The position numbers and the translations under genes are program-made. Shown piece by piece: positions 21,539 to 30,241 of a stretch of DNA of 64,000 bases. The stretch is taken from positions 992,001-1,056,000 of the forward strand of contig NZ_CP016804.1 in the NCBI RefSeq assembly GCF_001886955.1, written 5' to 3'. Each line of letters begins with the position of its first letter. Position 1 is the first letter of the stretch. The notes under the pieces are model-generated. The model saw only the letters and a list, made by a program, of their open reading frames with translations, was not told where the DNA came from and did not search any database. This DNA is from Halodesulfurarchaeum formicicum. Its GTDB lineage: Archaea; Halobacteriota; Halobacteria; Halobacteriales; Halobacteriaceae.

Positions 21539-22603
21539 TCAACGATCGCGTTCGATCACGTAGCGGGTGAAATCCTCGAGTTCGGCCTGCACCTCGGGAT
21601 CGATGTCCACTTCACCTAGCTGTGAGCGGGCGTCGGCAGCGAGCCGTTCGGCGGTTTCCAGGGCGAACTCCACGCTGTCGGTCTCCTGGAGAATCGAGAG
21701 GACGAATTCGATCTCCTCGTCGGTGACCTCCTCGGCCGTGAGAATCGACTCCAGGCGGTCCCGATCGGCCGGGTCAGCTTTTTTGAGGGCGTGAATCACG
21801 AGCAGCGTGCGTTTGCCCTCCCGGATGTCGTTTCCGAAAGCCTTGCCGAACTCCCCGGCCTGATCGAGTGAGTGTTTCACGTCGAGGACGTCGTCGCCGA
21901 TCTGGAAGGCGATCGAGAGGGACTCGGCGTAGGCGGCGAAGGCATCCTCGACAGCATCGGAGCTGTCCGTCACGAGTGCGGCCAGGCGGCCCGCTATCCG
22001 CCCCAGACAGCCGGTCTTGCAGGCGCTCATCTCCAGGTATTGGGCCTCGGTGATGTCGATCTCGCTCTCGTTGTGCCAGACGATATCCGTGCCCTGGCCC
22101 AGATGGGTCCGGTTCAGTTCGAAGGTCAACATCTCGTAGATCCCGAGTTGCTGGGACGGATCGAGGTCTCCGGGATTCGCCGAGATTACCTTCAGAGGCA
22201 CGAAGTAGAGCGCGTTCCCGGCGTTCAACGCGATGTCGGTTCCATAGCGGAGGTGAATCGCCTCTTCGCCCCGACGTAACGTCGCGTCGTCTTCCACGTC
22301 GTCGACGATAATCGTCCCGGTGTGGAGAATTTCGGGGATCGTGGCGTAGGGGAGATACTGCTCGGGATCCTCCCCCAAAGCGTCCACGAGTTCGAGAAAG
22401 AGGACCGGTCGCCAGCGCTTGCCACCCCGATCGAGCAGATCCCAGACTGGTTCGAAGAGGGCCTGCGCGATCGCCTCAGTATCGTATTCGTATCGCGGCG
22501 GCCCGAACAGGTCGGCCAACGTCTCCTCGGTGATCGTCCGTGGCAGGAGCTGTTCGATCTCCCGATCGATCGGCTCCCGCCACTCGGTCAACGCGTCCCG
22601 CAT
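21539..22603 (-). CDS. Polyprenyl (geranylgeranyl-type) diphosphate synthase
   Basis: The 354-residue prenyltransferase extends isoprenoid chains from DMAPP/IPP, giving precursors of archaeal lipids, carotenoids and quinones. It shows GGKRWRP (about residue 60), the first aspartate-rich motif DDVEDD (residues 101-106, followed by LRRGE), KTGCL (about 196) and the second motif GDDVLDV (236-242), then FGNDIREGKRTL. Product length cannot be fixed from the sequence. It lies 2 kb from the mevalonate gene cluster but on the opposite strand. Confidence 0.9.
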   Translation of the reverse strand: MRDALTEWREPIDREIEQLLPRTITEETLADLFGPPRYEYDTEAIAQALFEPVWDLLDRGGKRWRPVLFLELVDALGEDPEQYLPYATIPEILHTGTIIVDDVEDDATLRRGEEAIHLRYGTDIALNAGNALYFVPLKVISANPGDLDPSQQLGIYEMLTFELNRTHLGQGTDIVWHNESEIDITEAQYLEMSACKTGCLGRIAGRLAALVTDSSDAVEDAFAAYAESLSIAFQIGDDVLDVKHSLDQAGEFGKAFGNDIREGKRTLLVIHALKKADPADRDRLESILTAEEVTDEEIEFVLSILQETDSVEFALETAERLAADARSQLGEVDIDPEVQAELEDFTRYVIERDR

Positions 22604-23760: not shown

Positions 23761-24411
23761 CTATTCCAATCGGGAGGACGGACAGATGTCTTCGAGGAAA
23801 CAGGTCTCACAATCGGGTGAGCGGGCCGTGCAGACGGCCCGGCCGTGGGCGATCAACCAGTGAGTGAACAGCTTCCAGTCTTCCTCGGGCAGGATCTCCT
23901 GCAGGTCGGCTTCGATCTTCTCCGGTCGCTCCTCGTCCGTGAGTCCCAGCCGGCGCGAGAGACGCTGGACGTGGGTATCGACCACGATCCCCGCGACGGT
24001 GTCGTGGCCGTGTTGTAACACCACGTTTGCGGTCTTTCGCCCGACGCCAGGCAGATCGGTCAGTTCGTCCATCGAGTCCGGCACCGCACCGTCGTGTTCC
24101 GCGAGTAGTTGCTCGCCGATGCCCACGAGGTACTCGGCTTTGTTGTTCGGGTAGGTGCACGAACCGATGATGTCGGCGATGTCATCCGGGTCGGCCGCGG
24201 CGTAGTCTGCCGGCGTTCGGTACTGCTCGAACAGCGTCTCGGTGACCTCGTTGACCCGTTCGTCCGGACACTGAGCCGAGAGCACGACCGCGATCAGCAG
24301 TTCGAGGCGGTTCTCGAAGTCGAGCGAGATCGTCGCCTCCGGGTACGCCTCGCGCAGTCGGTCGATGACGACAGCCGCCTGTTCGCTTCGAGAGTCCCGC
24401 GGGATGCCCAT
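23761..24411 (-). CDS. nth: Endonuclease III (DNA glycosylase/AP lyase)
   Basis: The 216-residue base-excision-repair enzyme removes oxidised pyrimidines and nicks abasic sites. The helix-hairpin-helix LPGVGRKTANVV contains the catalytic lysine (K126), and VDTHVQRLSRRLGL carries the catalytic aspartate (D145). The iron-sulfur loop is complete, C194-x6-C201-x2-C204-x5-C210. The ATG at 24411 gives the family's normal N-terminus. It is divergent from the UbiD-led isoprenoid operon. Confidence 0.96.
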   Translation of the reverse strand: MGIPRDSRSEQAAVVIDRLREAYPEATISLDFENRLELLIAVVLSAQCPDERVNEVTETLFEQYRTPADYAAADPDDIADIIGSCTYPNNKAEYLVGIGEQLLAEHDGAVPDSMDELTDLPGVGRKTANVVLQHGHDTVAGIVVDTHVQRLSRRLGLTDEERPEKIEADLQEILPEEDWKLFTHWLIAHGRAVCTARSPDCETCFLEDICPSSRLE

Positions 24412-24465
24412 AGGCGAACTTCTCGTGGGTCGCCTTGAGCGATTCGACACGGGCCGTGGATCGCG

Positions 24466-24498: not shown

Positions 24499-25800
24499 AT
24501 GGGACTGCGAAGCGTGCTTTCGGGGTCGCCGGTCACGGAACTCACCGAACCGGTCGATCCCAGATTCGAACTCGCGGCACTCTCGGTACAGGACGAGTCA
24601 CAGCCCCTCGTCTTCGACTCGGTCGCGGGGTATCCGGACCTCTCGGCCGTGACGAACGTCGTCTCCTCCCGGGAGCGGATCGCCGGTGCACTCGATGTCG
24701 ACCGGGGCGAGATCGTCGACGCGATGACTCGGGCGACGACTGACCCGGTCCCCCTGGATGGAACGACGGCGGCGACCTTTGAATACGTCGCGACGTCGCC
24801 GACCGTCGACGACCACGTTCCGATTCCGACCTACTACGACGAACACGAACGCCAGTATATCGCCTCGGGAATCGTGATCGCGAAGGACCCCGATACCGGG
24901 GTGCAGAACCTCTCCTTCCACCGGTTGATGTACGACGGCGAAAACGAGTTCGTCATGCGCCTTGTCGAGCGCCACCTCCATGACATCCGCTCGCGGACCG
25001 ATGGCCCACTCGACGTGGCCATCGTCGTTGGGGTCCATCCGGCCGTGGAACTGGCGGCGGCGACCTCGGGCAGCCCCGAGATGGACGAACTCGAAGTCGC
25101 CAACGCCCTGCTCGACGGGGACCTGGCCGTCACGAAGTTGGATGGGTTGACGGTGCCCGCCGAGGCCGAACTGGTGATGACGGCGACGATTCGCGACGAG
25201 ACCCGTGCGGAGGGGCCCTTCGTGGACCTCTCGCGCACCTGGGATACGGTCCGCCAGCAGCCGGTCGTCGAGGTTCGGGACCTCTACCTGCGCCCGGACC
25301 CGATGATCCGGGTCGTCGTCCCAGGGAAGCGAGAACACGCCCACCTCATGGGGCTCCCCCAGGAGCCGCGGATCAAGCGAATCGTAGAGAACACCGTTCC
25401 CACCGTGCAGGAGGTCGTCCTGACCCCTGGTGGCTGTTCCTGGCTTCACGGGGTCGTTTCGATCGAGAAGCGGACCGAGGGTGACGCGAAAAACGCCGGC
25501 CTGGCGGCACTCGCAGCCCATCCCTCGATGAAACGGGTGGTCGTGGTCGACGAGGACATCGACCCGGCCGACCCCGACGCGGTCGAGTGGGCCGTGGCCA
25601 CGCGGGTTCAGGCCGATCAGGACATCGAAACCGTCGAGAATGCGAAGGGCTCCTCGCTCGATCCGTCCCAGGACTTCGAGACGGGCACGCTCACCAAGTG
25701 GCTCGTGGACGCGACCGTGCCATCGAATCGTGATCGCGCCGAATTCACCGAAGCAACGGTGCCGGGCGCGGCGGAGATCTCACTCGCGGAGTACCAGTAA
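24499..25800 (+). CDS. UbiD-family decarboxylase, probable trans-anhydromevalonate 5-phosphate decarboxylase
   Basis: The 433-residue enzyme belongs to the UbiD family of prenylated-FMN decarboxylases. Residues matching the catalytic set are visible: the arginine in VQNLSFHRLMY (R142), E238 in EGPFVD and, at the position of the second catalytic glutamate, D243. The C-terminal SSLDPSQDFETGTLTKW loop is also typical. It heads an operon with both aconitase X subunits and UbiX. In the archaeal mevalonate pathway that set converts phosphomevalonate via trans-anhydromevalonate phosphate to isopentenyl phosphate, so this is probably the decarboxylase of that route. Aromatic-acid decarboxylase remains an alternative. 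Confidence 0.82.
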   Translation: MGLRSVLSGSPVTELTEPVDPRFELAALSVQDESQPLVFDSVAGYPDLSAVTNVVSSRERIAGALDVDRGEIVDAMTRATTDPVPLDGTTAATFEYVATSPTVDDHVPIPTYYDEHERQYIASGIVIAKDPDTGVQNLSFHRLMYDGENEFVMRLVERHLHDIRSRTDGPLDVAIVVGVHPAVELAAATSGSPEMDELEVANALLDGDLAVTKLDGLTVPAEAELVMTATIRDETRAEGPFVDLSRTWDTVRQQPVVEVRDLYLRPDPMIRVVVPGKREHAHLMGLPQEPRIKRIVENTVPTVQEVVLTPGGCSWLHGVVSIEKRTEGDAKNAGLAALAAHPSMKRVVVVDEDIDPADPDAVEWAVATRVQADQDIETVENAKGSSLDPSQDFETGTLTKWLVDATVPSNRDRAEFTEATVPGAAEISLAEYQ

Positions 25801-25802
25801 CG

Positions 25803-26987
25803 ATGCCAATGGATCTCACCACCGACGAACAGGCACTGCTCGAATCAGACAATCCGGCCGTCCGAAAGTCGATGGAGTTGCTCGTGCGTCTCGGAGACAT
25901 CTACGGGGCCGAGGAGTTCGTCGAGATCGGCTCCGCCCAGGCCTCGGGCATCTCCTACAAGTCGATCGGTGACCCGGGGGTGGAGTTCCTCGAAGGGTTC
26001 GCCGCGGAGGGTGCGGAAGTGCAGGTTCAGACCTTCGCCAACCCGGCGGGGATGGACATCGACCGCTGGGAGGAGATGGGGGTCGATCCGGAGTTCGCAA
26101 AACAACAGCGCCGAATCGTGGGCGCACTTCGCGAAATGGGTGTGACCGTCTCCTTTACCTGTACGCCGTATCTCGCGGGGAACCTTCCCGGGCCGAACGA
26201 ACACATCGCCTGGGCGGAGTCCTCGGCGGTGTCATTCGCGAACAGCGTGGTCGGGGCGCGCACCAACCGCGAGGGCGGTCCCTCCGCGCTCGCGGCGGCG
26301 ATCACGGGGCGCACCCCGAAGTACGGGTTGCACCTCGCGGAAAACCGTGTCCCAACCCACCGAATCGACGTCGACGTCGAACTGCAGAACCAGGCCGATT
26401 TCGCCGCGCTCGGCTCCTGGGCGGGCCGGATCGTGGAGGACGGCCGTCCCTACTTCGCCGGCGTGGATGGGGCGACAACGGACGAACTGAAGGCCCTCGG
26501 CGCGGCGATGGCCGCAACCGGGGCGGTGGCGATGCACTTCGTCGGCGGGGTCACCACCGATGAGGAGCCACCGACTGATCTGGAAACCCTGGAGTTCGGT
26601 TCGGCGGAACTCGAGGCCGAGTACGGCGAACTCAACTCGACGGAGGACACCGACCTCATCGTCTTCGGCTGTCCACACGCCTCCGTCGACGAGATCGGGC
26701 AGGTGGCCGACCGGCTGGACGGCGAATCCCTCGATCGGGATCTCTGGGTCTGTGCCAGCGGCGCTGTCAAGTCCCAGGCCGACCGGATGGGGTACACGGA
26801 GACGATCGAAGACGCCGGCGGGATGGTCCTCAGCGACACCTGCAACGTCGTCGCCCCGATCGAGGAGATGGGCTATGAATCGACGGCCACCGACTCCGCG
26901 AAAGCGGCGGCCTACCTCCCGGGATTCGGTGAACAGGACGTGCACTTCGACGACAAACTCTCCCTGCTCGAGGAGGCGATCGAATGA
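25803..26987 (+). CDS. Aconitase X large subunit, probable phosphomevalonate dehydratase large subunit
   Basis: The 394-residue protein is the large (DUF521, PF04412) subunit of aconitase X. It shows YGAEEFVEIGSAQASGISYK, CTPYLAGNLPGPNEHIAWAE, FANSVVGARTNREGGPSALA (each motif is conserved) and SDTCNVVAP. Likely iron-sulfur ligands are C120, C290 and C347. In archaea the two-subunit AcnX dehydrates (R)-mevalonate 5-phosphate to trans-anhydromevalonate 5-phosphate; bacterial relatives act on hydroxyprolines. The flanking UbiD and UbiX genes favour the mevalonate role. It starts two bases after ubiD and overlaps the small subunit by four bases. Confidence 0.88.
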   Translation: MPMDLTTDEQALLESDNPAVRKSMELLVRLGDIYGAEEFVEIGSAQASGISYKSIGDPGVEFLEGFAAEGAEVQVQTFANPAGMDIDRWEEMGVDPEFAKQQRRIVGALREMGVTVSFTCTPYLAGNLPGPNEHIAWAESSAVSFANSVVGARTNREGGPSALAAAITGRTPKYGLHLAENRVPTHRIDVDVELQNQADFAALGSWAGRIVEDGRPYFAGVDGATTDELKALGAAMAATGAVAMHFVGGVTTDEEPPTDLETLEFGSAELEAEYGELNSTEDTDLIVFGCPHASVDEIGQVADRLDGESLDRDLWVCASGAVKSQADRMGYTETIEDAGGMVLSDTCNVVAPIEEMGYESTATDSAKAAAYLPGFGEQDVHFDDKLSLLEEAIE

Positions 26988-27394
26988 GCGAGACAGTCGA
27001 GGGGCGGACGATCGCCGAGGGGGTCGCGGAGGGCGAGGTGCTGGTCTCCCCCGAGCCCATCAGTTTCTACGGTGCGGTCGACACCGACACGGGCGAGTTC
27101 ATCGAGGCCGATCATCACCTCACCGGTGAGACGATCGCGGGCAAGGTCCTTGTCTTCCCCAAGGGAAAGGGGTCGACAGTCGGTTCGTATGTCATCTACG
27201 GGCTGGCCCAGGAGGGGACCGGCCCCGCTGCGATCATCAACCACGAGACCGAAACCATCGTGGCGACCGGGGCCATCCTCGGCGAGGTTCCCTGTGTGGA
27301 CGGCATCGAGGACGCCGTGGAGCGGTTCGAGGACGGCGACCGGGTTCGTGTCGACGCGACCGAGGGGACGGTCACGCTGCTCGCCGATGACTGA
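26984..27394 (+). CDS. Aconitase X small subunit, probable phosphomevalonate dehydratase small subunit
   Basis: The 136-residue protein is the swivel-domain (DUF126, PF01989) subunit of aconitase X. The core FPKGKGSTVGSYVIYGLA contains the serine pair expected at the active site, and AIINHETETIVATGAILGEVPCVDG is typical of the family (only GAILGEVPCVDG needed to recognise it). Two-gene AcnX is the archaeal form; bacterial AcnX is often fused. It overlaps the large subunit by four bases and ubiX by eight, so the two subunits and the cofactor enzyme are translationally coupled. Confidence 0.9.
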   Translation: MSETVEGRTIAEGVAEGEVLVSPEPISFYGAVDTDTGEFIEADHHLTGETIAGKVLVFPKGKGSTVGSYVIYGLAQEGTGPAAIINHETETIVATGAILGEVPCVDGIEDAVERFEDGDRVRVDATEGTVTLLADD

Positions 27395-27959
27395 ACGTGA
27401 AACGGTGGTCGTCGGGCTCTCCGGGGCCTCCGGAACGCGACTCGGTGTCGCAACCGTCGAGGCACTCGCCGAGCACTTCTCGGTGCACGCCGTGGTCACC
27501 GACGGCGCCAGGGCCGTGATGGACCACGAGACGGATTCCCGCGCTGAGACGATGGCGGCACTCGAATCGATGGCGACAGTCCACGATGGCGAGGACCTGA
27601 GCGCCCCGATCGCGTCGGGATCAGTCCCGACGGCGGGTATGGTCGTGGTCCCTGCCTCGATGAAGTCGGTCGCGGCCATCGCGAACGGCTACGCCGAGAA
27701 TCTGCTCGTTCGAGCCGCCGACGTGACCCTCAAGGAGGATCGAACACTCGTGGTGGTGCCGCGGGAATCGCCACTCAATGAGGCTCACCTGGAGAACCTG
27801 CTCGCCCTCCGCAAGCGTGGCGTTGCCGTCGTGCCACCTGTGCTCGGCTTTTACTACGACCCACAGGACATCCAGGACGTGATCGACCGGACCGTGGGCA
27901 CCATTCTCGATCGCTTCGACGTCGAACACGACCGGTACGAGCCCTGGGATCCGGTCTGA
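27387..27959 (+). CDS. ubiX: Flavin prenyltransferase UbiX
   Basis: The 190-residue enzyme makes the prenylated FMN needed by UbiD decarboxylases, from FMN and dimethylallyl (pyro)phosphate. It has VVVGLSGASGTRLGV at the flavin site, VVVPASMKSVAAIANGYAENL in part and RTLVVVPRESPLNEAHLENL in part, all diagnostic. Its start at 27387 lies inside the AcnX small-subunit gene (eight-base overlap). The frame is open further upstream, but that part is antiphase to AcnX. Being in the same operon supports UbiD being a prFMN enzyme. Confidence 0.93.
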   Translation: MTERETVVVGLSGASGTRLGVATVEALAEHFSVHAVVTDGARAVMDHETDSRAETMAALESMATVHDGEDLSAPIASGSVPTAGMVVVPASMKSVAAIANGYAENLLVRAADVTLKEDRTLVVVPRESPLNEAHLENLLALRKRGVAVVPPVLGFYYDPQDIQDVIDRTVGTILDRFDVEHDRYEPWDPV

Positions 27960-28000
27960 CTGGCCAAGTTTCGTTCCAAGCAGGGGTGCAGGGATGCGGT

Positions 28001-28010
28001 GTGTTTATCC
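28001..28010 (+). promoter_or_regulatory. TATA-like element of the phosphomevalonate decarboxylase gene
   Basis: GTGTTTATCC lies 24-33 bases upstream of the ATG at 28034. It suggests that this gene has its own promoter rather than being read only from the UbiD operon, and it supports the start at 28034. Confidence 0.5.
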
Positions 28011-28033
28011 GGTGGCCGGTCCCCTTCCACAGC

Positions 28034-29014
28034 ATGAAAGCGACCGCCAGGGCCCACCCCATCCAGGGGCTGGTCAAGTATCACGGGTTGCGAGACGCCG
28101 AGTTGCGCTACCCGTATCACGACAGCATCAGCGTGGCGACCGCGCCCGCGGAGACCGTCACGACGGTAGAGTTCGACCCGGAACTGGACGAATCTACGTA
28201 CGTCGTCGACGGCGAGGAACTCACGGGCGAGGCCGCCGACCGGGTCGAACGGGTCCTGGATCGCGTGCGAACCATCGCTGAGGATCCGGCCGTCGAGGCC
28301 CCAGTGAAACTGGTAAGCGAGAACTCCATGCCCACGAACGTCGGTTTGGGCTCCTCTTCCTCCGGCTTTGCGGCTGCCGCGATGGCCGCGGTCGAAGCTG
28401 CCGGACTCGATCTCTCACGCCCGGAGATCTCGACGATCGCCCGACGTGGCTCGGCCTCGGCGGCCAGGTCAGTGACTGGCGGATTTTCGGACCTGCGAGC
28501 GGGAACGACCGACGAGGACTGTCGCTCCACCCGGATCGAGTCGCCCCTCGAAGACGACCTGCGGATCGTCGTCGGGATCGTCCCGGCGTACAAGGAGACC
28601 GGCTGGGCCCACGAAGAGGCGACCCAGAGCCACCTCTGGCAATCGCGGCTGGCCCACGTCCACGATCAGCTCGCGGCGATGCGGCAGGCGCTTCGTGAGG
28701 GGGACTTCGAGACGGCCTTCGAGGTGACCGAGCGGGACACCCTGAGCCTGGCCGCGACGACGATGACCGGCCCGGAGGCATGGATTTACTGGCAGCCCGA
28801 GACCCTGGAAATCTTCGAGACAGTCCGGGGACTGCGTGAGGAGGGCGTACCGGTTTACTTCTCCACTGATACCGGCGCGACCGTCTACGTGAACACCCGG
28901 ACCGAACACGTCGACGAGGTCGAGGCGGCAATTGCCGATCTGGGCGTCGAAACCCGTGTCTGGGAGGCCGGCGGCCCCGCGACTATGCTCCCGGAGACCG
29001 AAGCCCTGTTCTGA
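28034..29014 (+). CDS. Phosphomevalonate decarboxylase, haloarchaeal type (MvaD homolog)
   Basis: The 326-residue GHMP-fold enzyme is homologous to mevalonate diphosphate decarboxylase. It starts MKATARAHPIQGLVKYHG and has the nucleotide loop TNVGLGSSSSGFAAAA (about 101-116) and RRGSASAARSVTGGF (about 137-151), the active-site Arg/Ser block. In Haloferax volcanii the orthologous family decarboxylates mevalonate 5-phosphate to isopentenyl phosphate in an ATP-dependent step. The sequence here looks complete. It begins 74 bases after ubiX and has its own TATA-like box. Together with the preceding operon it would give two routes from phosphomevalonate to isopentenyl phosphate. Confidence 0.9.
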   Translation: MKATARAHPIQGLVKYHGLRDAELRYPYHDSISVATAPAETVTTVEFDPELDESTYVVDGEELTGEAADRVERVLDRVRTIAEDPAVEAPVKLVSENSMPTNVGLGSSSSGFAAAAMAAVEAAGLDLSRPEISTIARRGSASAARSVTGGFSDLRAGTTDEDCRSTRIESPLEDDLRIVVGIVPAYKETGWAHEEATQSHLWQSRLAHVHDQLAAMRQALREGDFETAFEVTERDTLSLAATTMTGPEAWIYWQPETLEIFETVRGLREEGVPVYFSTDTGATVYVNTRTEHVDEVEAAIADLGVETRVWEAGGPATMLPETEALF

Positions 29015-29065: not shown

Positions 29066-30241
29066 ATGCGAGTCGTCGTGTTCGGCGGCGGGTACGCGGG
29101 CATCGTCGCAGTGACGCGGCTCGAACGCCGCCTCCCGGAATCGGCCGAGATCGTGCTCGTGGATCAGCGGCCGACCCATCTCATCAAACACGAGTTGCAT
29201 CGGGTGATCAGACGGCCCGAGTTCGCGGCGGAACTCCAAATTCCCTTCGCGGACATCCTGAAACGGGCCCAGTTCGACCAGCGAACCATCGCGTCGATCG
29301 ACTTTGACGCGGGCGCTGTCACCTTCGAAGACGGGGAGCAGCTATCCTACGACGCGGGAATCGTTGCGCTCGGTTCACGGCCGAATTACTACGGACTGGA
29401 CGGCGTCGAGGAACACAGCGTCCCGATCGCGACGCCGGCGGATGCCACAGCCATCGCCGATTCGATGGCCGACCTACTCGAAGACAGATCGGGCACGGTT
29501 GTCGTTGCCGGGGCCGGGTTGGCCGGTGTCCAGGTCGCGGGTGAACTCGCGGCCGTCCGAAACGACACGGATGTGACTGACGTCTCGATCATCCTCATCG
29601 AGCGGGCTTCCGAAATCGTTCCTGGGTCCTCGGCCCGATTCCAGGAGGCGATTCGGCAGGCCCTCACCGAGCGGAACGTCGAGATCCGGACCGATACGAC
29701 CGTCTCGGGCGCGGACGACTCGGTCGTCGGCCTGGCCGATACACTCGACATTCCCGCAGACCTCTTTGTCTGGGCGGGCGGCATCCAGGGCCAGGCACTC
29801 TTCGACGGGGATCGCCCCCGGGTGCGGGCCGATCTCAGGCTTGGCGATCGAACGTTCGGCGCAGGTGACGCAGTCCAGGCGATCGACGAGGACGGGAGTC
29901 TCGTCGAGCCAACGGCCCAGGCGGCGGTCGGAATGGCGACCGTGGCTGCCGACAACGCGATTCTCCGGGCTCAGGCCGACGACCAGACCGGGTTTCGGCC
30001 GGCCTATCACCGTTACCGCGAGACGGGCGAGAGCCGCATCGTCACGGTTGGCGATACAGCCGTCGCACAGCTCGGGCCGACGGTGGTGACTGGGCCAGCA
30101 GCGAGAGCGCTCAAATCTGTCGTCGGAGTCCGGTATCTCTCCGCGGCCGGGGCGATCGAGAACGCCCTGACGGTGTTCCGCAGCGAGTTCGATCTGGCTC
30201 ATCCGCGGGCCGGCCGCGAACTCGACCGGGACCGCCTCTGA
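29066..30241 (+). CDS. NDH-2-like FAD/NAD(P)-dependent oxidoreductase
   Basis: The 391-residue flavoprotein has an FAD-binding N-terminus (VVVFGGGYAGIVAVTRL), a second dinucleotide fold (VVVAGAGLAGVQVAGELA, about residue 150) and a C-terminal GAGDA-type FAD motif (FGAGDAVQAIDEDG). It resembles type II NADH dehydrogenases and sulfide:quinone reductases. I do not see the paired redox cysteines of a true sulfide:quinone reductase. It probably transfers electrons to a quinone at the membrane. It starts 51 bases after the decarboxylase gene, on the same strand. Confidence 0.82.
   Translation: MRVVVFGGGYAGIVAVTRLERRLPESAEIVLVDQRPTHLIKHELHRVIRRPEFAAELQIPFADILKRAQFDQRTIASIDFDAGAVTFEDGEQLSYDAGIVALGSRPNYYGLDGVEEHSVPIATPADATAIADSMADLLEDRSGTVVVAGAGLAGVQVAGELAAVRNDTDVTDVSIILIERASEIVPGSSARFQEAIRQALTERNVEIRTDTTVSGADDSVVGLADTLDIPADLFVWAGGIQGQALFDGDRPRVRADLRLGDRTFGAGDAVQAIDEDGSLVEPTAQAAVGMATVAADNAILRAQADDQTGFRPAYHRYRETGESRIVTVGDTAVAQLGPTVVTGPAARALKSVVGVRYLSAAGAIENALTVFRSEFDLAHPRAGRELDRDRL

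Follow-up and report, generated by a model that had tools for sequence, protein, structure and literature searches.

Two predicted mevalonate branches side by side in Halodesulfurarchaeum formicicum, and the probable secondary origin of one of them

The archaeal and the haloarchaeal ways of making isopentenyl phosphate out of mevalonate 5-phosphate have been described as alternatives (PMC10040528, PMC11052028), and the class Halobacteria is given as an exception lacking the archaeal route (PMC10040528). Why, then, does a haloarchaeal chromosome carry an operon resembling the archaeal route next to its gene for phosphomevalonate decarboxylase (PMD)? The locus lies in a stretch of 64,000 nucleotides (the window; contig NZ_CP016804.1, positions 992,001 to 1,056,000) of Halodesulfurarchaeum formicicum HSR6, whose genome is a complete single contig of 2,085,946 bp (99.97% complete). 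HSR6 is a strictly anaerobic haloarchaeon that oxidises formate or hydrogen and respires sulfur (PMC5437934). Our answer, which we hold with considerable confidence, is that the four genes for UbiD, the two AcnX subunits and UbiX form a complete archaeal mevalonate branch that was acquired secondarily, with halophilic DPANN archaea as the most likely donors, and that probably runs parallel to PMD at a saving of ATP. The analysis shows that the genes are present, to which families they belong, which residues and what gene order are conserved, where the operon is inserted, how the sequences are related and that they are under purifying selection.

Five intact open reading frames (ORFs) are found at the locus, at the positions first read:

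24499-25800, plus strand: UbiD-family decarboxylase, predicted trans-anhydromevalonate 5-phosphate decarboxylase dependent on prenylated FMN (prFMN); 433 aa; TIGR00148, 312.9 bits (cut-off 244.9)
25803-26987, plus strand: AcnX large (AcnXL), predicted phosphomevalonate dehydratase large subunit; 394 aa; PF04412, 479 bits
26984-27394, plus strand: AcnX small (AcnXS, swivel), predicted phosphomevalonate dehydratase small subunit; 136 aa; PF01989, AcnX_swivel, 108 bits
27387-27959, plus strand: UbiX flavin prenyltransferase, predicted maker of prFMN for UbiD; 190 aa; TIGR00421, 192.4 bits (cut-off 108.9); PRK06029, 203 bits (over cut-off)
28034-29014, plus strand: PMD (MvaD) of the haloarchaeal ATP-dependent route; 326 aa; NF040704 (IPP_alt_MvaD equivalog), 571.9 bits (cut-off 475)

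An earlier note, made from the letters of this DNA, had described an operon of UbiD, AcnX large, AcnX small and UbiX with PMD following it, and had claimed that two alternative mevalonate branches adjoin here. The operon was confirmed at these coordinates, with overlaps of 8 bases between AcnX small and UbiX and 4 bases between the AcnX genes and a gap of 74 bases between UbiX and PMD; the family searches agree with its gene assignments, and family matches together with conserved residues support the presence of two complete predicted routes by which mevalonate 5-phosphate becomes isopentenyl phosphate. In the branch that we propose, AcnX large and small would form a [4Fe-4S] phosphomevalonate dehydratase (PMDh) turning mevalonate 5-phosphate into trans-anhydromevalonate 5-phosphate, which UbiD, with prFMN provided by UbiX, would decarboxylate to isopentenyl phosphate. 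PMD would reach the same product from mevalonate 5-phosphate in a single step that consumes ATP, and isopentenyl phosphate kinase (IPK), encoded elsewhere in the genome (chromosome 744531-745178; 183 bits, cut-off 120), would serve both branches.

Identity of the AcnX and UbiD proteins

The best match of AcnX large in the PDB is the T. kodakarensis PMDh homologue (7cnr_A, 336 bits, versus 185 bits for hydroxyproline dehydratase), and AcnX small matches 7cnr_B (TK1248) with 135 bits. In the A. pernix PMDh, the iron-sulfur cluster is held by C122, C297 and C356 (PMC10040528); by alignment through TkPMDh and the published alignment (PMC10040528), these residues correspond to C120, C290 and C347 of AcnX large, which are kept in all 19 haloarchaeal rows, with aligned cysteines in every archaeal row. 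The three cluster cysteines of type IIb AcnX are present and position C of type I is absent; the large and small subunits are encoded, as is also typical of type IIb, by separate genes in tandem, and the protein is placed among archaeal PMDh in trees. All 66 of the 66 columns that are near-invariant in non-haloarchaeal PMDh-like sequences are unchanged. The AcnX score of 249.8 bits compares with a cut-off of 700, the subunits being separate, and equivalog models of the hydroxyproline enzymes fall far below their cut-offs.

UbiD, for its part, keeps 56 of 56 near-invariant columns of its archaeal relatives and has the archaeal-type active-site segment EGPFVD at residues 238-243; E238, D243, R142 and E289, residues that we presume to be catalytic, are all retained. 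In the closest solved relative, 6h6v, presumably the furan decarboxylase HmfF, this segment reads EGPFGE, and the models for aromatic-acid UbiD enzymes remain under cut-off (UbiD PRK10922, 88 bits with a cut-off of 788; VdcC, 212 with 650; menaquinone SCO4490, 105 with 496). In relatives, the gene is linked to AcnX, mevalonate kinase (MVK) or IPK. The earlier note had pointed to hydroxyproline and aromatic-acid enzymes as the families to be distinguished; both trees and scores group these proteins instead with phosphomevalonate dehydratase and its partner decarboxylase. This supports the assignment of the AcnX pair as a phosphomevalonate dehydratase and of UbiD as a trans-anhydromevalonate phosphate decarboxylase, activities that we infer from the residues and relationships just described.

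Distribution, insertion site and origin

PMD is present in all 392 Halobacteria genomes, in 388 of them over the equivalog cut-off, and AcnX exceeds its cut-off in 19. A survey of co-occurrence, as the earlier note had suggested, finds the full operon, and with it both routes together, in 18 of the 392, confined to six genera (names inferred): Halodesulfurarchaeum (2/2), Halanaeroarchaeum (2/2), Halorhabdus (7/7), Halapricum (4/5), Halalkaliarchaeum (2/2) and g7 (1/1). The order UbiD-AcnXL-AcnXS-UbiX is the same in all 18 carriers, in one more haloarchaeal metagenome-assembled genome (MAG) and in those DPANN MAGs whose contigs span all four genes, and this recurrence argues against a chance arrangement. 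An assembly or contamination artefact was also considered and is ruled out by the complete single contig and by the same arrangement in independent genomes. UbiD and UbiX occur in every carrier and are absent from four non-carriers tested; HSR6 has, besides UbiX, one further PF02441 protein, in a longer frame, which is also present in non-carriers. The nineteenth AcnX genome, G271, has a divergent pair (L057:7804-9494; large subunit 33% and small subunit 45% identical), with UbiD on another contig, and this pair probably has a different AcnX function.

The surroundings of PMD are informative with respect to how the operon may have arrived. In five Halobacterium-type genomes (g2) and in G236, all of them operon-less Halobacteriaceae, nth and PMD lie next to each other in divergent orientation, separated by 84-235 bp that hold no ORF. 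In HSR6 the distance is 3583 bp and is filled by the operon, which occupies the same gap in Halanaeroarchaeum; it adjoins PMD only in these two genera and is located elsewhere in the genome in Haloarculaceae and Halalkaliarchaeum. The features that frame the site in the window are:

23761-24450, minus strand: endonuclease III (nth), bordering the insertion site on the left; TIGR01083, 233.9 bits
24468-24474, plus strand: TATA-like box TACTTAG, by resemblance to the consensus, centre about 28 bases before the UbiD start
28004-28009, plus strand: TATA-like box TTTATC, probable ancestral PMD promoter, about 28 bases before the PMD start
29066-30241, plus strand: pyridine nucleotide-disulphide oxidoreductase (PF07992), right neighbour of PMD, ancestral context

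The oxidoreductase gene follows PMD in most operon-less genomes examined. The TTTATC box is found, identical and at the same place, in operon-less Halobacteriaceae, and most other haloarchaeal operon copies aligned have an A/T-rich box at about -27. As the PMD box is unchanged in non-carriers and most operon copies have a box of their own, it is probable that PMD still uses its ancestral promoter and that each branch can be controlled on its own. In the Halobacteriaceae, the operon would have been inserted upstream of the resident PMD, whose promoter-like box stayed in place. About 2 kb to the left of the operon lies a polyprenyl diphosphate synthase-like gene (window 21539-22603, minus strand), assigned from its own sequence; since such a gene is also near nth-PMD in several operon-less relatives, this isoprenoid gene neighbourhood may predate the insertion.

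Beyond the Halobacteria, the nearest relatives belong to DPANN MAGs from hypersaline soda lakes (an origin read from the sample names, T1Sed10; the MAG labels are Aenigmatarchaeota/Diapherotrites), whose AcnXL is 63-67% identical. Haloarchaeal AcnXL sequences are monophyletic in their tree (100/99), with the halophilic DPANN as sister group (100/100, stem 0.39). The two groups branch among other members of that DPANN phylum, and methanogens together with Archaeoglobus make up a clade apart. In the UbiD tree, the haloarchaeal clade falls inside the halophilic DPANN, with L035 outside (96/85). The penalty for uniting the haloarchaea and the other Halobacteriota is 96 log units for AcnXL (approximately unbiased (AU) test, p 1e-5) and 135 log units for UbiD (AU p about 1e-83). 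The simplest reading of these trees is that the operon was most likely transferred from halophilic DPANN to haloarchaea. In both trees, the AcnX and UbiD of G523 (L061, L114), a MAG assigned to Halobacteriota, group with the DPANN, which represents either another transfer or contamination of the MAG.

The gene context in DPANN bears on function as well. Three contigs (L033, L034, L039) share the arrangement MVK - DHS (deoxyhypusine synthase) - Nudix - UbiD - HD - AcnXL - AcnXS - UbiX - IPK, in which MVK scores 176 bits (cut-off 163) and IPK 224 bits (cut-off 120) in the scan of L033, that of IPK extending to L039. No PMD match was found in any of six such genomes, all of them incomplete MAGs. 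Given the flanking MVK and IPK genes and the lack of a PMD match, it is most likely that in DPANN these four genes provide the steps linking mevalonate kinase to IPK. The haloarchaeal and DPANN clusters share the order of the four genes, whereas the DPANN cluster is the larger one and only the four-gene module is found in haloarchaea. The deoxyhypusine synthase, Nudix and HD-domain genes are interspersed with the pathway genes in the same orientation (L033:2573-6014, L034 and L039).

Weighing of the possible explanations

The earlier note had left three readings side by side: an evolutionary intermediate, a redundant or switchable pathway, and a new substrate for one of the sets. An intermediate would be a relic, with a haloarchaeal ancestor that had the archaeal pathway, a PMD that arose beside it, and a few genera that kept both, in keeping with the published scheme deriving the haloarchaeal route from the archaeal one (PMC9254496, PMC11052028) and with the adjacency of operon and PMD in two genera. 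This adjacency, however, is limited to two genera of Halobacteriaceae and seems to stem from an insertion between nth and PMD, the AcnXL and UbiD sequences go with halophilic DPANN and not with methanogens or other Halobacteriota, and the AU tests reject a vertical placement, so that we regard a relic as highly improbable. Being patchy (18 of 392 genomes), tied to halophilic DPANN and inserted into a pre-existing gap in a class where PMD is universal, the operon appears to be a secondary acquisition rather than an ancestral intermediate. That the AcnX/UbiD set has been neofunctionalised on another substrate, unrelated to isoprenoids, is conceivable in that PMD supplies isopentenyl phosphate in all Halobacteria and a second set would be free to diverge. 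The near-invariant columns of AcnXL and UbiD are nevertheless unchanged, selection on both is strongly purifying, and the sister operon in DPANN sits between MVK and IPK, no PMD having been found there; this last point supports the assigned function, and a new substrate is accordingly disfavoured and seems to us very unlikely.

The reverse case, in which the operon carries most of the flux and PMD is dispensable, being repurposed or lost, could take support from a diverged second PMD copy in Halodesulfurarchaeum. The main PMD, however, scores over the family cut-off here, all carriers examined have it intact, and its dN/dS is about 0.1; this explanation is an unlikely one. Pairwise within genera, dN/dS ranges over 0.04-0.14 for AcnXL and UbiD and over 0.10-0.15 for PMD: both branches are under purifying selection and neither gives the impression of a remnant in decay. 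Low PMD scores in some carriers had suggested relaxed selection on that gene, a reading that was dropped because scores just as low occur in the operon-less g3 and g6 and because dN/dS is low. The second PMD (L088:9449-10420, minus strand; G000 chromosome about 1800448-1801419; 323 aa, 54% identical) is found in the Halodesulfurarchaeum genomes and in a Halodesulfurarchaeum MAG; its 389 bits fall short of the PMD cut-off, and 25 of the 112 residues invariant in PMD have been lost, but the segments KYHG and DTGA are still there. The gene faces cbiP, in convergent orientation, where a cobalamin gene cluster ends; as it lies far from the operon and has lost these residues, it was rejected as a part of the operon system.

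Redundancy or switching between the two routes is plausible. In its most explicit form, an oxygen-sensitive, ATP-free dehydratase route would work in anoxia or energy limitation and PMD in oxic or high-flux conditions, which we consider quite possible. PMDh carries a [4Fe-4S] cluster (PMC10040528) and the archaeal branch costs one ATP less per isopentenyl unit (PMC11052028), properties that suit an energy-limited, low-oxygen life; operon and PMD each have their own promoter-like box; and, as far as the literature covers the named carrier genera, they are strict anaerobes, namely Halodesulfurarchaeum (PMC5437934) and Halanaeroarchaeum, or, in the case of Halalkaliarchaeum, facultative sulfur respirers. 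Irrespective of a switch, the operon branch most likely serves as an ATP-sparing parallel to PMD in haloarchaea living partly or wholly without oxygen. A more far-reaching version, that anaerobic haloarchaea took a lipid-precursor operon from halophilic DPANN, possibly their own episymbionts, set it in front of the resident PMD gene, and now use two chemically different, separately controlled routes as an energy- or oxygen-dependent switch, seems possible, if less likely than not.

Several observations weigh against the explanation that we prefer, an archaeal branch gained from halophilic DPANN as an ATP-sparing parallel to PMD. COX1 is retained by 15 of the 18 carriers (it is absent in G000, G001 and G092) and is missing from the non-carrier G128, which rules out a restriction of the operon to obligate anaerobes; the association with an anaerobic life is suggestive without being strict. 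The strictly anaerobic carriers, such as HSR6, which has no COX1, keep PMD under purifying selection, so that oxygen alone cannot explain why both routes are kept; this retention also counts against a condition-dependent switch. Concerning the origin, the UbiD tree separates Halodesulfurarchaeum from Halanaeroarchaeum (94/95) despite their common insertion site, whereas they are sisters in the AcnXL tree; replacement of UbiD or composition bias is a possible cause. Finally, a common unsampled donor is possible, as the DPANN sampling is small and the MAGs are incomplete. On the side of physiology, a full-length COX1 is present in G347, which belongs to the genus of Halanaeroarchaeum sulfurireducens, but absent from H. 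sulfurireducens itself (G092): the capacity for aerobic life differs within a genus known from strict anaerobes.

Comparison with known systems and implications

With the archaeal mevalonate pathway of Aeropyrum pernix and methanogens, the operon shares the enzyme families, the subunit split of type IIb AcnX, the cluster cysteines and the association of UbiD with UbiX, although here it is found in Halobacteria, beside a second complete route, and its sequences are DPANN-like rather than of the methanogen lineage. With the haloarchaea-type pathway of Haloferax volcanii (PMD and IPK), the locus has in common the PMD equivalog, IPK, the promoter-like box and the neighbourhood seen in operon-less relatives; unlike there, a UbiD-AcnX-UbiX operon is inserted directly upstream of PMD. 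The nearest parallel to two mevalonate branches in one archaeon is that of the Asgard Hodarchaeales (PMC11052028), in which the archaea-type (AMPD, AcnX) and eukaryote-type (PMK, DMD) branches are on one contig; there, however, the second branch is PMK/DMD, the evidence comes from MAGs only and no transfer from DPANN is described. In the accessible literature we found no report of both routes coexisting in haloarchaea, although haloarchaeal AcnX may have been mentioned before in papers that are not open. The enzymes themselves are known; their combination in Halobacteria and its history appear to be new, and the combination contradicts the picture given in the accessible papers.

DPANN are usually seen as receivers dependent on their hosts. 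Here, the archaeal branch would have been regained laterally, apparently from the DPANN side, in at least six haloarchaeal genera. The type of mevalonate pathway is thus not safely inferred from taxonomy, and culturable carriers let the cost and purpose of two chemistries be compared in one cell.

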